Source: Ensifer adhaerens
GTDB lineage: Bacteria > Pseudomonadota > Alphaproteobacteria > Rhizobiales > Rhizobiaceae
Length of the DNA: 64,000 nucleotides
Direction: 5' to 3'
NCBI RefSeq assembly: GCF_000697965.2
Contig: NZ_CP015880.1
Coordinates: 2,108,001 to 2,172,000, forward strand
The first letter of the stretch is position 1. Every line of letters starts with the position of its first letter. The notes under the pieces are model-generated. The model did not search any database and was not told where the DNA came from. It worked only from the letters and a program-made list of their open reading frames with translations. Shown here in pieces: positions 785 to 6,860 of the stretch. A program made the translations under genes and the position numbers.

Positions 785-1363
785 ATGCAGCAGCCGGCCC
801 TCGGGATCCTGATTGGAGGAAGCTCGCATGTCGGGAAGTCGACACTCGCCAGGGCTCTCGCAAGTTCGCTCGGGCGGGAGCTGATCTCGACGGACGATCT
901 GGGCCGCCATCCCGGCAGGCCCTGGCCGTCGGTCCGTCCTCAGGTCGCCGAGTACTATGCAAGCCTGACCGACGAGACCATCCATTGGTTCCTGAAGGTG
1001 CACCACGAAAACATGTGGCCGCGCATCCGCCAGATCATCGAAAGCCGCCTAAAACACGCTCAACCCTTCGTGCTTGAAGGTGCCGCGCTCCGGCCGGAGT
1101 ATATGGCTCAATTCGAACAAGAGGACATCCTCCCCCTGTTTCTCTACGCGGATGACGCTTTCCTGCGCCGGCGTATGCTGGAAGAATCTCGGCGCGCAGA
1201 TGCTGACGGGACGAAGGCCGCGATCATCGACAAGTTCATCGAGCGCTCGATCCGCGAAAACAGAGAGATGCTGGAGGCTGCCGGAACCGCCGACATCCGG
1301 TGTATCGATGTCGCGGCGCCCGGGACGCTCGACGCCTTGGTGAAAGAGTTTTCGGCGGCCTGA
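785..1363 (+). CDS. Small P-loop kinase-like protein (AAA_33 / 2-phosphoglycerate kinase-like)
   Basis: A 192-residue protein with a clean Walker A motif GGSSHVGKST at residues 11-20 and a second acidic motif STDDL (about 35-39). The later basic LRRRM segment (about 126-130) could act as a lid. The fold should be a P-loop nucleotide kinase of the zeta-toxin/shikimate-kinase/2-phosphoglycerate-kinase type. The substrate cannot be read from the sequence. No antitoxin-like gene sits beside it, so a zeta-toxin role is not supported. The gene converges on argS with a 24-bp gap. Confidence 0.7.
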   Translation: MQQPALGILIGGSSHVGKSTLARALASSLGRELISTDDLGRHPGRPWPSVRPQVAEYYASLTDETIHWFLKVHHENMWPRIRQIIESRLKHAQPFVLEGAALRPEYMAQFEQEDILPLFLYADDAFLRRRMLEESRRADADGTKAAIIDKFIERSIRENREMLEAAGTADIRCIDVAAPGTLDALVKEFSAA

Positions 1364-1387
1364 TCACCGAGGTCGGCCAACCGAACG

Positions 1388-3323
1388 TTACATGCGCCGC
1401 ACCGGCTCCATTCCAAGAAGCTCCAGACATTTCCCGATGACCTGTGCGACGAGCCTGCATGTGGCAAGCCGACCCGACGGATCATCTGCCTTCAGCACCG
1501 GGCAATCCGCGTAGAAGCGGCTGAACGCATCTGCCACCTGGTAGGCCCGGTCGGCGATCTCGAAGGATTCGAGCTGATGCGCCGCCTGCGAAAGCGCATG
1601 CGGATACCAGAGACATTCCATCAGCACGGCCCGCTCGGACGGATGGCTGATCGAGACCATCTCGGCTGGAACCATGCCCGCCTCCTCGGCCTTGTCCAGG
1701 ATCGATGAGATCCGGGCGTAGGCATATTGAAGATACGGACCCGTCCGCCCCTCGAAGGAGGTCATCCTGTCGATGTCAAAAACATAACCTGTGTTTCGCG
1801 GCGTGGAGAGGTCGGTAAACTTCAGGGCGCCGAGACCGACGGCCGTGGCCGCCTCGCCGTCAGTCACCTTTTCCGACGACTTGGCAAGCGCCAGATCGAT
1901 CATGTCGCCGACCGATGCGGCCGACCCGTCGCGGGTCTTGAAGGGCTTGCCGTCGCTGCCACGAACGGTGCCGAAGGTCGCGTGCCGCAGTTCGACGCCA
2001 TCGGCATAACCTGCCGTCCGCGCCGCCGAAAACACGCTGGCAATATGCAGCGCCTGCCGGTCGTCGGTGCAATAGACGATCTGCTCTGTACCGAGATCGC
2101 GCACCCGCTGGCGCAGCGTCGCGAGATCCGTCGTGCCGTAAAGCGCAGCGCCGTCGCTCTTCTGAAGAAGCAGAGGTGGCGCATTGTCTGGAAGTCCGTC
2201 CCCGGCGACATCCATGACAAGAGCACCGTCGCTCTCCCGAGCGAGCTTGCGGGCAACGAGGTCGGCAAGCATGGGCGCGACTTCGGCATGCGCATCGCTT
2301 TCCCCCTTGAACAGGTCGAAATGCGCCCCTAGCACCTCTGCTGTGGCCGAGATCGCGACCAGGGAAATGGCCCGCATGCGCCCCCAGGCCGCGGTCAGGA
2401 GTGGATCTCCGTCCTGCAGTCTCGTGGTCAGCATCCGCGCCTGCGCAAGCGACGTCTCGTCCTCGCAGGCCGCATTGCCCGACCTGTAGAGAATGCCAAG
2501 TTCATCGACGGTCATGGCATCGAATGCGCGGGGATCGATGAAGGGCGCGGGATCGCCGGCTTTCCATCCGGCGGCCAAGGCCGCACCCAACAAGGGAAAT
2601 GGCCCGCATGCGCCCCCAGGCCGCGGTCAGGAGTGGATCTCCGTCCTGCAGTCTCGTGGTCAGCATCCGCGCCTGCGCAAGCGACGTCTCGTCCTCGCAG
2701 GCCGCATTGCCCGACCTGTAGAGAATGCCAAGTTCATCGACGGTCATGGCATCGAATGCGCGGGGATCGATGAAGGGCGCGGGATCGCCGGCTTTCCATC
2801 CGGCGGCCAAGGCCGCACCCAACAGAAGCTTGCCCATCTGCAGGCCCCAGTCGCCGAGATGGATATCGGACAGCACGTCGTGGCCGATCTCAAGCAGGAT
2901 GCGCCGCAGGCTTTCGCCGATGACGAAGGAACGCAGGTGCCCGACATGCAACGCCTTGGCGACGTTGGGTCCGCCGAAATCGATGATGGTGCGCAGCGGC
3001 TGCACCTTCTCGGCGGCAAGCGACCCATCGGCCAGCATCGCCGTCGCCTCCGCGGCAACCGCCGCATCCGTCAGCCGGACGTTGATGAAACCCGGACCGG
3101 CGACGGACACTTCCGCGAATTCTTCGCCGCGTGCCGCCTCGGCAACCTCAGCGGCAAGTTCGCGCGGATTCCGGCCGGCGGATTTTGCCAGCCGCATCAT
3201 GTCGTTGCATTGGAGATCGCCGAACTCGGGCCGTGTCGACCGGGCGATGGAGGGTTCGGCTTTAAGGCCGTTCAGTTCATAGGCGCGAGCAAGGGCTGCG
3301 AGTGCTGCCGATTTGACGGACAT
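1388..3323 (-). pseudogene. argS: Arginyl-tRNA synthetase gene disrupted by a tandem duplication
   Basis: Class I aminoacyl-tRNA synthetase. The ATG at 3323 begins a frame with an N-terminal Add-1-like region, then GPNVAKALHVGHL with HVGH as the HIGH motif (residues 126-129). After two copies of a 232-bp unit, the rest of the enzyme (KTRDGS as the KMSKS-equivalent, then the anticodon-binding C-terminus ending GMEPVRRM) continues in another frame. As written, the 5' frame stops at 2502 after 273 residues, and the 3' part is open only from a TTG at 2593. Removing one repeat copy gives exactly 568 codons, so the duplication is the only lesion. ArgS is normally essential, so either another copy exists elsewhere, or this is a rare allele or an assembly error. 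Confidence 0.9.
2361..2824. repeat. Perfect 232-bp tandem direct duplication inside argS
   Basis: Positions 2361-2592 and 2593-2824 are identical base for base and directly abut. The unit length is 232, which is 77 codons plus one base, so the duplication shifts the reading frame. Flanks diverge immediately on both sides (c2360 versus a2592; a2593 versus g2825), so there is no long homology at the junction. Confidence 0.97.
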
Positions 3324-3710
3324 GGATCATTTCCTGAAATTGCATGAAAAGGAGCGCAAAAGCGTTGAGAGCTTCAGCGTCGTCGTTCTGCAATTTTCGG
3401 AACCATGTTCATGGCAAGCCTCGAGATTGGAGCCCTTCAATAGTCCGTTCGGTGACCGCTGGCAATGTTATGATCGGCTGCGCCGTCACTACGTTGGTGT
3501 GGCTCAGAAGGCCCCCTCTTCCGCCTGACGGCACCCACTCGCCCAACAAGGCCCGCCCGATTTCCCGCTAATCGCGGACCCCGTTCGCGGTGCCGGCAGC
3601 ATGGCACGTCACCTATATCCCCGCCCGCGGGGAGAGGGTTATTCCTCGGGTTAAACCCGATGAGCGGGGCAATGCCTCTGGACACGCGAACACCACGCCT
3701 CAACCAACAC
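3324..3710. other. Intergenic region between argS and the LysR gene
   Basis: No convincing gene. It carries the argS promoter side and, at 3619-3641, a degenerate half of the mosaic repeat seen twice elsewhere (ccccgcccgcggggagagg core). Next to it at 3646-3660 is a short palindrome with 7-base arms tcgggtt / aacccga around one base. The rest shows nothing recognisable. Confidence 0.6.
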
Positions 3711-4559
3711 CTACTTCCACCCCCGAACCGCCTCTTCGATGAAAGCCGCGACCGCCGCCACGCTCGGCACGCGCGCCCGTTCCGGGTGCATCATCAGATA
3801 GACTGGGCGCTCGGCGGCCGCCCCCGGTTCGTCCACCGCCTCGAAACGCGGATCGCGTGAGGCCGAAACCTCCGGCAGCATCAGTTCGGCGCCGAGCGAA
3901 AGGGCCGCCTCCATCAGGATCTCCAGCTTGTCGGCCGTCAGCGCCACGCGGGCATCCGGTCTGAGCCGGTCAAGCGCCTGCATCTCCGGCACATGGGCGA
4001 GTGCCGGGCCGTAGCGCACGACCGGGCATGGGCCTTCTCCCTGCCCCCTCGGCCGGAACAGGCGGAAACGCAGCGTGCCGAGGCTCTTCACCCGCACACT
4101 GTCTTCGCCGGTGCGGGCCATGCGGATGGCGATGTCGGCCTCGCGCCGCTCGATGCTCAGCATCTGGTTGTCGGCAACGAGATCGAGGGTGAGGCCCGGA
4201 TGGCGCTGTTCGAGGCGGGCAAGCGCCGGCGCCAGGATGGCGCTCAAGACGAAGCCGATGCTGGTCACCCGTACCTGGCCCTGCAGTTCCGCCGTGCGCC
4301 GCAGCAGCGTCGCCAGCGACAGCGACGCCTCCTCCGAGATCGTCCGAAGCCGCTCGACGACGGGGGAAAGCACCGGCGTCGGCGTCAGCCGGCCGTCGAT
4401 GCGGTCGAAGAGCGCCGCCCCCACCCGCCGCTCCAGCGCCGCAAGCCGGCGCGACACCGTGGTCTGGTCGACACCAAGCGAGCGCGCCGCCTGGCTGAGC
4501 GTCGCACCGCGCACCAGATGATCGAGCAGTTCGAGATCCGCCCATCCCCCTGCATTCAT
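3711..4559 (-). CDS. LysR-family transcriptional regulator
   Basis: Starting at MNAGGWADLELL gives 282 residues: an N-terminal winged helix (LSQAARSLGVDQTTVSRRLAALE) and a periplasmic-binding-protein-like effector domain. An in-frame ATG at 4589 would add ten residues but has no better ribosome site. The gene is divergent from the cysteine hydrolase at 4738, the usual arrangement for a LysR protein controlling its neighbour. The effector domain has the short form seen in LysR proteins of small oxidoreductase/hydrolase pairs. The ligand is unknown. Confidence 0.85.
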   Translation of the reverse strand: MNAGGWADLELLDHLVRGATLSQAARSLGVDQTTVSRRLAALERRVGAALFDRIDGRLTPTPVLSPVVERLRTISEEASLSLATLLRRTAELQGQVRVTSIGFVLSAILAPALARLEQRHPGLTLDLVADNQMLSIERREADIAIRMARTGEDSVRVKSLGTLRFRLFRPRGQGEGPCPVVRYGPALAHVPEMQALDRLRPDARVALTADKLEILMEAALSLGAELMLPEVSASRDPRFEAVDEPGAAAERPVYLMMHPERARVPSVAAVAAFIEEAVRGWK

Positions 4560-4737: not shown

Positions 4738-5346
4738 ATGTCCGATTCCGCGCCCGCAGCAACCCTTTTCACACTTGCCGGCGTCACGCTCGCCCCGCCG
4801 CCGCTTGGCGAAGCGACGCTGGTGCTGATCGACTACCAGAACGAATATCTGGCCGGCCCCGTGCGCCTGGTCGAGCCGGAAGCGGCGATCGAAAAGGCGC
4901 GGCAGTTGCTGGTCGCCGCTCGCGCCGCCGGCGCGAAGATCATCCACGTCGCTCATAAGGGGGCCGCCGGCGGCATGTTCGACCGGGGGGCGCACCGCGG
5001 CGCGATCGTCGATGCGCTGACGCCAATCGCCGGCGAAGCGGTGGTCGAGAAGATCCGGCCCAACGGCTTTTCGGACACCAACCTTGCCGAAATCATTGGG
5101 CCGGCCGGCACGCCGGTGATCTTCGCCGGCTTCATGACCCACAATTGCGTGTCGTCGACGGCCCGCGCGGCCAAGGATCTCGGCTACGGCATCACCATCG
5201 CATCCGATGCCTGCACCACACGCGACCTGCCATCGGCAAGCGGCACCATCTCCGCCCGTGCCCTGCATGACGCCGAACTTGCCGGCCTTGCCGACCACCA
5301 CGGCGCGGTCGTCAATGTCGCCGCGCTGATTGCGGCACGCAGCTGA
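4738..5346 (+). CDS. Isochorismatase-like cysteine hydrolase
   Basis: A 202-residue protein of the isochorismatase-like hydrolase family, with the catalytic triad in place: Asp in LIDYQNEY (about residue 31), Lys in VEKIRPNGF (about 102) and the nucleophile Cys in THNCVSSTA (about 136). Members hydrolyse small amides or enol ethers such as nicotinamide, N-carbamoyl amines or isochorismate. The exact substrate is not predictable here. It has an AAGGAG ribosome site and lies divergent from the LysR gene. A strong terminator follows, so it is probably a single-gene transcript under LysR control. Confidence 0.85.
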   Translation: MSDSAPAATLFTLAGVTLAPPPLGEATLVLIDYQNEYLAGPVRLVEPEAAIEKARQLLVAARAAGAKIIHVAHKGAAGGMFDRGAHRGAIVDALTPIAGEAVVEKIRPNGFSDTNLAEIIGPAGTPVIFAGFMTHNCVSSTARAAKDLGYGITIASDACTTRDLPSASGTISARALHDAELAGLADHHGAVVNVAALIAARS

Positions 5347-5372
5347 GAGACCCGTCGTTCCCTTCGAAAACG

Positions 5373-5402
5373 GGCGTCCGCAGCTGCGGGCGCCTTTCTC
5401 TT
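5373..5402 (+). terminator. Rho-independent terminator after the cysteine hydrolase
   Basis: Arms ggcgtccgcag and ctgcgggcgcc pair over 11 bp with one G-T wobble, followed by tttctctt. It lies 27 bp after the stop codon. Confidence 0.75.
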
Positions 5403-5522
5403 GCCATGCAGATGGCGAAGATTACGAAAATATAATGATCTCAATGCTTTTCGCCGGGTCCATTCGCTTCTATTTTTGAACCTATCCATTTTGGCATCGG
5501 CGATGCCGGTTAGGCGCAAGCG

Positions 5523-6860
5523 ATGAACAAGACAGCCAAGACGGCGCGAGCCGACACCACGCCCCGAGACGATGCGGCGCCCAACGTCACCTTCATTCCC
5601 GGTGCGGTGAAGACGGTGAAGCGCAGGCGCCGCTCGCGAGCCTGGCTGTGGCTGCCGGTCATCCTCGCCGTCGCCGGCGCCGGCTATTACGGCTGGACGC
5701 GCTATGGAGAGAACCCGGCCTCGACCGCAATGGTGACCGAGGTGGTGACCCGCGGCGACATCGAAAACAGCGTGACCGCCGTCGGTACGCTCGACGCGGT
5801 CAATTCCGTCGATGCCGGCGCCCAGGTCTCCGGCCAGTTGAAGGCGCTGCATGTGGCGATCGGCGACACGGTCACGCAAGACCAGCTCGTCGCCGAGATC
5901 GATCCGGCCACCATCGAGAACCGCATAGAGATCGACCAGGCGGAGCTTGCCAACCTTCAGGCCCAGCTCATTTCCAAGAGGGCGCAGCTCGTCCTCAAGC
6001 AGGCCAATATCGACCGCCAGCGCAATCTCGTCGAAACCCGGAGCGTGGCGCAATCGACGCTCGACCAGGCGATTGCCGATCTCGCCGCCGCCGAGGCCGA
6101 CGTCAACGCCATCGAGGCGCAGATCCGCAAGCAGCAGGCGACCCTTGCCGGCGACAAGGTCGATCTCGGTTACACCAAGATCTACGCGCCGATCTCGGGC
6201 ACCATCGTCGCCAACCCGGCCAAGGCCGGCCAGACGCTGAATGCCAACCAGACGACGCCGACCATCGTCACCATCGCTGACCTCTCGACCATGACCGTCA
6301 AGGCGCAGGTGTCGGAAGCAGACGTCACCCGGCTGAAGGTCGGCATGGATGCCTATTTCACCCTGCTCGGCCAGCCCGGCAAACATTTTGCCGGCAAGCT
6401 TCGCCAGATCCAGCCGATGCCGGACACGGCCAACAACGTCGTGCTCTATTACGCACTCTTCGACGTGCCCAATCCCGAAGGCGAACTGATGATGTCGATG
6501 AGCGCCCAGGTGTTCTTCGTGCAAGCCGCCGCCAAGGACGTATTGATCGTGCCGAGCGGCGCCTTGAGCCATCCGGCCAAGGGTACGGGAGATGCAACGG
6601 GTGAGAGCAACGGCCGACGCGACGGCCAGAGAAACGGAACCGGAAGCGGGCCCCGCAAGGCGCAGGTGACCGTGGTTACGGCTTCCGGCGCGCTCGAAAC
6701 CCGCGACGTCGAAATCGGCATTCGCAACCGCGTCAGCGCCGAGATCAGAAGCGGCCTCCAGGAGGGCGAGAAGGTGGTCGTCAGCACCGGATCGACAGGG
6801 AGCGGCAACGCCCGCGACAACCGAAACCAGCGTGGCATGCGCATGCCGCCGATGTTCTGA
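5523..6860 (+). CDS. macA: MacA-type periplasmic adaptor of an ABC efflux system
   Basis: A 445-residue membrane-fusion protein. A basic cytoplasmic tail (KRRRRSR) precedes one membrane anchor (about 40-58). Then come a barrel-sandwich/lipoyl half ([19 protein letters not shown]), an alpha-helical hairpin rich in Ala, Gln and Leu (about 130-205), the second lipoyl half (YAPISGTIV), a beta-barrel domain and a membrane-proximal domain. Such adaptors link an inner-membrane MacB transporter to a TolC-like outer channel. A Gly/Asn/Arg-rich insertion (about residues 360-378) is unusual. The macB gene follows 19 bp later, so this is a two-gene operon; no outer-membrane channel is encoded here. Confidence 0.92.

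Follow-up and report, generated by a model that had tools for sequence, protein, structure and literature searches.

Organization of the argS2 locus

The stretch of Ensifer adhaerens DNA analysed here, hereafter the window, spans 64 kb. Near its beginning lies an arginyl-tRNA synthetase (ArgRS) gene, argS2, that is divided between two open reading frames, and upstream of argS2 a short leader ORF ends with three arginine codons (Table 1).

Table 1 Position of the features at the argS2 locus (window coordinates)
Feature	Coordinates	Strand	Remarks
Neighbouring AAA_33-type ATPase/kinase gene	785..1363	+	DNA match to G005 continues from argS2 into this gene
argS2 C-terminal ORF	1388..2593	-	401 aa; rest of the catalytic domain, PFKTRDG loop, DALR
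Second-read copy of the 232-bp unit	2361..2592	-	argS2 codons ~167-244; in frame with the C-terminal part
argS2 N-terminal ORF	2502..3323	-	273 aa; Arg_tRNA_synt_N, HVGH and start of the catalytic domain
First-read copy of the 232-bp unit	2593..2824	-	In frame with the N-terminal part
argS2 Shine-Dalgarno with neighbouring bases, UGCAAUUUCAGGAA	3331..3344	-	Predicted pairing with leader ORF 3389-3404
Leader hairpin CGCUGAAGC-loop-GCUUUUGCG	3355..3379	-	Final Arg codon and stop lie inside
Leader ORF, MVPKIAERRR then stop (CGA CGA CGC TGA)	3374..3406	-	12 codons if the ATG at 3412 is used
Promoter-like pair TTGCCA-N17-TATTGA	3437..3465	-	Core bases of both boxes conserved in the alignment; putative promoter

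The division of argS2 was analysed by comparison with P0007, an intact close relative (98% identical, 567 aa). The 273-aa ORF covers residues 1-244 of P0007 with 3 differences, and the 401-aa ORF covers residues 167-567 with 10 differences. No stop is found inside either aligned part. The 273-aa ORF ends with about 28 out-of-frame residues followed by TGA. The 401-aa ORF starts at a TTG at 2593, and an ATG at 2515 is found 14 bases from the end of the stop of the N-terminal ORF.

The three Pfam domains PF03485, PF00750 and PF05746 are all present, divided between the two ORFs. The HIGH-type motif HVGH and the KMSK-type motif PFKTRDG are also both kept, in separate ORFs. We take the presence of PFKTR in place of KMSK to be characteristic of the E. 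coli type of ArgRS. In bacterial ArgRS, a class I enzyme, these domains are joined in a single protein; this arrangement is absent from the window, and relatives such as P0007 have the three domains together. The full-length structure matches of argS2 are chains named arginine--tRNA ligase. Among solved ArgRS chains, 6ao8, 4oby (presumably the E. coli enzyme) and 5b63 match the intact relative over almost its full length. Compared with these chains, the window gene, an accessory second copy, keeps HVGH, PFKTRDG and the three Pfam domains, though divided. The dN/dS ratios, averaged over the divergence, are about 0.23 (N part) and about 0.12 (C part) with respect to L014, and 0.15 and 0.12 with respect to L005, indicating that argS2 has been under constraint over that divergence.

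An exact tandem duplication puts argS2 out of frame

As originally predicted, the two copies of the 232-bp unit are identical and adjacent. All 232 bases match, in a head-to-tail arrangement of 2.0 copies without indels. The length of the unit (3x77+1) makes the duplication frame-changing, and argS2 is indeed out of frame after it, hence the 273-aa and 401-aa ORFs. The original prediction further held this to be the only lesion. Our comparison supports the claim, because the two ORFs jointly cover P0007 without an internal stop. The argS2 gene of the window was thus probably inactivated by the out-of-frame duplication, a loss of function that we deduce from the reading frames.

The bases at the borders of the duplication differ, C versus A on the left and G versus A on the right, and the match extends no base beyond either. 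Because the 232-bp match stops exactly at both borders, the breakpoints are devoid of microhomology. Such breakpoints suggest that the duplication may have arisen by end joining or by a replication accident.

A search of the whole genome (7,267,502 bases) found the 232-bp unit in just two places, both at this locus. It is the sole exact tandem duplication reported in the 64-kb window by a scan for exact head-to-tail repeats; Tandem Repeats Finder gave two further arrays in the window, both weak and with 21-base units. No second duplication of this kind was found in 20 sampled stretches covering 400 kb of the 4,071,185-base chromosome, and none like it in 10 stretches (200 kb) of the relative G005. 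The head-to-tail scan also picked up a 58-base unit with 42 bases matching in L070. On the chromosome of the window, positions 3612-5714 of L052 contain patches of a diverged tandem-like repeat with a 1,231-base spacing.

When the 273-aa fragment was used as query, the protein search yielded P0123, of 269 aa, which is encoded on a contig of 774,607 bases. All 269 aligned residues are identical, including the tail of about 28 residues that derives from the duplication junction, and four residues (VAEA) near residue 60 are missing from P0123. Four member sequences are counted in its cluster. The C-terminal part was not listed as a cluster of its own in the protein search. P0123 is a separate record, because the genome of the window has one such locus and carries it on the 4,071,185-base contig. 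Its origin could be a sister strain, or else the same or a closely similar strain assembled a second time; in both cases, the junction has come up in two records. We regard the two-copy argS2 as a genuine allele that occurs in two or more sequence variants, and probably not as an assembly error.

These comparisons also bear on the age of the duplication. Two residues inside the unit that differ from P0007 are common to both copies, which places the duplication later than the divergence from the P0007 lineage (98% identical). That P0007 is intact also makes the duplication younger than this split. The duplication predates the split of the window's allele from P0123. The description of the duplication as recent in the original prediction thus holds in a relative sense, after the P0007 split but before the P0123 split.

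A housekeeping ArgRS is encoded elsewhere in the genome

The original prediction reasoned that the broken copy could be dispensable only if another argS existed. Searching the genome identified a second, intact ArgRS, a 586-aa ORF located at 1,345,557-1,347,317 of contig C1. This canonical enzyme has all three Pfam domains and carries KMSK, in contrast with PFKTRDG in argS2. The broken gene of the window is an accessory argS2, additional to the housekeeping argS. As the canonical ArgRS supplies the activity, the duplication in argS2 is tolerated.

Distribution and relatives of argS2

argS2 was found in 3 of 16 Ensifer genomes, in 11 of 148 genomes of a second genus and in 1 of 21 of a third. 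In a sample across the family, it was present in 4 of 394 genomes. Besides the window, 14 genomic copies were available, three of them in G005, G013 and G255 and 11 in the genus of G068, with one assembly per species. G013, which belongs to the same genus as the window, agrees in coordinates and sequence with NZ_LGAP01000018 of E. adhaerens SD006. All 14 are without an internal stop, with open frames of 554-610 codons. The argS2 of G472 (L094) has a 554-aa open frame as compared to the usual 567-568, and its match still spans 1-567.

In G005, the DNA match to the window continues from argS2 into the neighbours on both sides. In the five loci L005-L009, it comprises argS2 and about 150 bases upstream, and no neighbours. 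From the patchy distribution, with the match limited to argS2 and its leader in L005-L009 in support, we infer that argS2 has spread horizontally.

A second case of decay is seen on pSymA of Sinorhizobium meliloti M270 (L042, ~4760-6650). There, the 5' end of argS2 runs into another ORF, which by eye we take to be resolvase-like, and a single base is absent next to the PFKTRDG codons. This copy was broken separately from that of the window. To explain both decays, it is enough that a dispensable gene was lost.

Several proteins returned by the searches deviate from the usual form. P0030 (496 aa, 2.9-Mb contig) and P0039 (484 aa), Rhizobium sp. RCAM05973, are without the N-terminal domain, corresponding either to a shortened gene or to a late start call. 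P0050-P0052 are without the C-terminal domain. P0050 and P0051, which are diverged, have a similar frame-shifted ending at the PFKTRDG loop, reflecting either repeated slippage at this site or a common origin. Finally, P0008, an ArgS2 of the Ensifer/Rhizobium type, carries the organism label Roseateles sp. XES5 (UNVERIFIED_ORG), which looks wrong; the longest contig there is 4.03 Mb.

A leader ORF ending with Arg-Arg-Arg precedes argS2

Upstream of argS2, a 10-13-codon ORF ending with Arg-Arg-Arg-TGA is present in all 20 leaders scanned, which come from 17 sources and comprise 16 distinct sequences. The set consists of the window (3331-3412, minus strand), L005-L009, L014, L043, L047, L048 and L085-L094; the S. 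meliloti locus L042 was omitted, its argS2 being without a 5' end. The peptide is MAPKIAERRR in L005, MENIVPKTVRRR in one Rhizobium group and MRNTIPARPRRRR in R. leguminosarum TP16, the last two being given up to the stop. Such an ORF, located before the gene and carrying several cognate codons in a row, is one of the features of amino-acid leader-peptide attenuators. No Arg-Arg-Arg leader was found in the 300-400 bases before three of three distant homologues, L010 (41% identical), L098 (Roseibium plasmid) and L099 (Cupriavidus plasmid).

The pattern CGNCGACGCTGAAGC occurs four times in the genome. The three other sites were rejected as leaders. In the 120 bases viewed in translation at each of them, another frame is open throughout, and no start codon giving a short Arg-Arg-Arg ORF was seen. 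A covariance model of the leader matched in 3 of 297 genomes of the family, at one place each, before argS2, with strict filters at which weak matches are lost. Comparison of window positions 1300-3800 with Rfam gave no match at the leader; two matches fell within the coding region of argS2, below the gathering score. No literature on arginine leader-peptide attenuation before argS, or on a second ArgRS, was found in a search made mostly outside subscription journals.

For each of the 16 distinct leaders, folding predicts a helix between the argS2 Shine-Dalgarno sequence and the leader ORF. The pairing probability of the Shine-Dalgarno sequence is 0.39-0.91, compared with means of 0.06-0.20 for shuffled sequences, each of the 16 leaders being above its own mean. 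The fraction of 200 shuffles reaching the observed pairing ranges from 0.005 to 0.15, and exceeds 5% in 8 of the 16 single-leader tests. Z-scores of the leader folding energy range from -0.87 to -4.61. Covariation in RNAalifold is weak, with a two-sided change in 1 of 15 pairs. In the leader alignment, no conserved U-run was read after the leader hairpin. Because no such run follows the hairpin, control of translation is favoured over transcription termination.

The leader is a candidate arginine attenuator of a new family, and likely a new member of the amino-acid leader-peptide attenuators. In the window, it is intact in front of the broken argS2.

Discussion

We regard it as very likely that the window carries an accessory, horizontally spread argS2 that was lost by duplication; in intact relatives, argS2 would probably serve as an inducible back-up with an arginine-sensing leader. 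Three other explanations of the divided gene were considered. The original prediction held misassembly to be a real alternative, in which the strain has one copy of the 232-bp unit and the assembler retained an overlap twice. Perfect identity and zero microhomology are the pattern expected of an uncollapsed overlap. However, P0123, on a contig of different size and without four residues, ends in the identical junction tail, and the 400-kb sample of the chromosome has no second such duplication reported. Since the same junction-derived tail is found in a non-identical protein on another contig, we consider misassembly very improbable. Equally improbable in our view is a split enzyme, in which translation of both ORFs would give two pieces that share about 77 residues and assemble into a working ArgRS2. 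No residue of the protein is lost, HVGH being in one part and PFKTRDG and DALR in the other, and re-initiation at 2515 is possible because this ATG adjoins the stop of the N-terminal ORF, within 14 bases. Nevertheless, no clear Shine-Dalgarno sequence was seen by eye before this ATG, the N part has a tail of about 28 foreign residues, and this division is unique to the window among the genomic copies.

The remaining explanation, the on/off switch of the original prediction, is phase variation. The duplication would be an off state, often gained and lost, giving mixed on/off populations. In capsule genes of pneumococci (type 3 locus, cap8E, tts), sequence duplications that arise spontaneously were reportedly described by Waite et al. 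in 2001 and 2003, reports that are cited in PMC4243769 and PMC4292784. Duplications in the capsule genes of Streptococcus pneumoniae are described as reversible (PMC4243769), which offers a precedent. In those genes as in argS2, a tandem duplication within the ORF turns the gene off. A frame-changing exact duplication, one feature of phase variation by tandem duplication, is present in the window, and precise loss of one copy of the exact 232-bp direct repeat is physically possible. The breakpoints are, however, without microhomology that could seed repeated duplication, and the same duplication is found in two sequence variants, with no reversal seen. The 14 other genomic copies are all uninterrupted, although one assembly per species cannot show mixed states. 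The pneumococcal case also concerns capsule genes, and that of the window an accessory tRNA synthetase. Nothing supports a dedicated argS2 switch, and switching is unproved; with one assembly per species this is an absence of evidence, but the duplicated form does occur in two variants. We rate phase variation as unlikely, slightly less so than misassembly or a split enzyme.

Loss of an accessory gene by duplication therefore remains our preferred reading, and the leader suggests how intact copies may be controlled. The leader peptide ending with Arg-Arg-Arg would be translated upstream of argS2, and the leader RNA is predicted to pair with the argS2 ribosome-binding site, hiding it. When charged tRNA-Arg is scarce, a ribosome would stall on the Arg codons of the leader and the argS2 site would be freed. 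Where argS2 is intact, it probably provides a back-up ArgRS that can be induced.

Among described designs, the closest one is the LEU element of Actinobacteria, where attenuators upstream of trpS2 and leuS are also described (PMC1262725). Both the LEU element and the argS2 leader have a leader ORF with a run of cognate codons. The codon run of the LEU element itself pairs with the Shine-Dalgarno box (PMC1262725), whereas in the argS2 leader the predicted pairing arm is upstream of the Arg codons. The argS2 leader also differs from the element described there by its arginine codons, by its occurrence in rhizobia and by its association with an accessory ArgRS.

A standalone canavanyl-tRNA editing protein (B3/4) is presented as an answer of rhizosphere bacteria to an arginine analogue accepted by ArgRS (PMC10018355). 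B3/4 as described there is an editing protein, whereas the argS2 product is an ArgRS. B3/4-domain matches were found in 10 of 10 chosen genomes, 7 with argS2 and 3 without. In these genomes B3/4 domains do not track argS2, so that they show no link between argS2 and canavanine editing.

It seems rather more probable than otherwise that rhizobial argS2 is a mobile inducible back-up under an undescribed arginine-sensing translational attenuator, perhaps as a protection from arginine analogues or ArgRS-directed inhibitors, and that here the enzyme is off and the sensor intact. Taken by itself, the lesion looks like an unremarkable case of a dispensable gene being lost, and it shows that a frameshift in argS does not have to signal an assembly error or the absence of an essential enzyme. 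The leader matters more than the lesion. If it works as predicted, it would be a compact arginine-tRNA sensor. It would then tell when rhizobia need a second ArgRS, and what this synthetase of patchy inheritance does could be put to a direct test.
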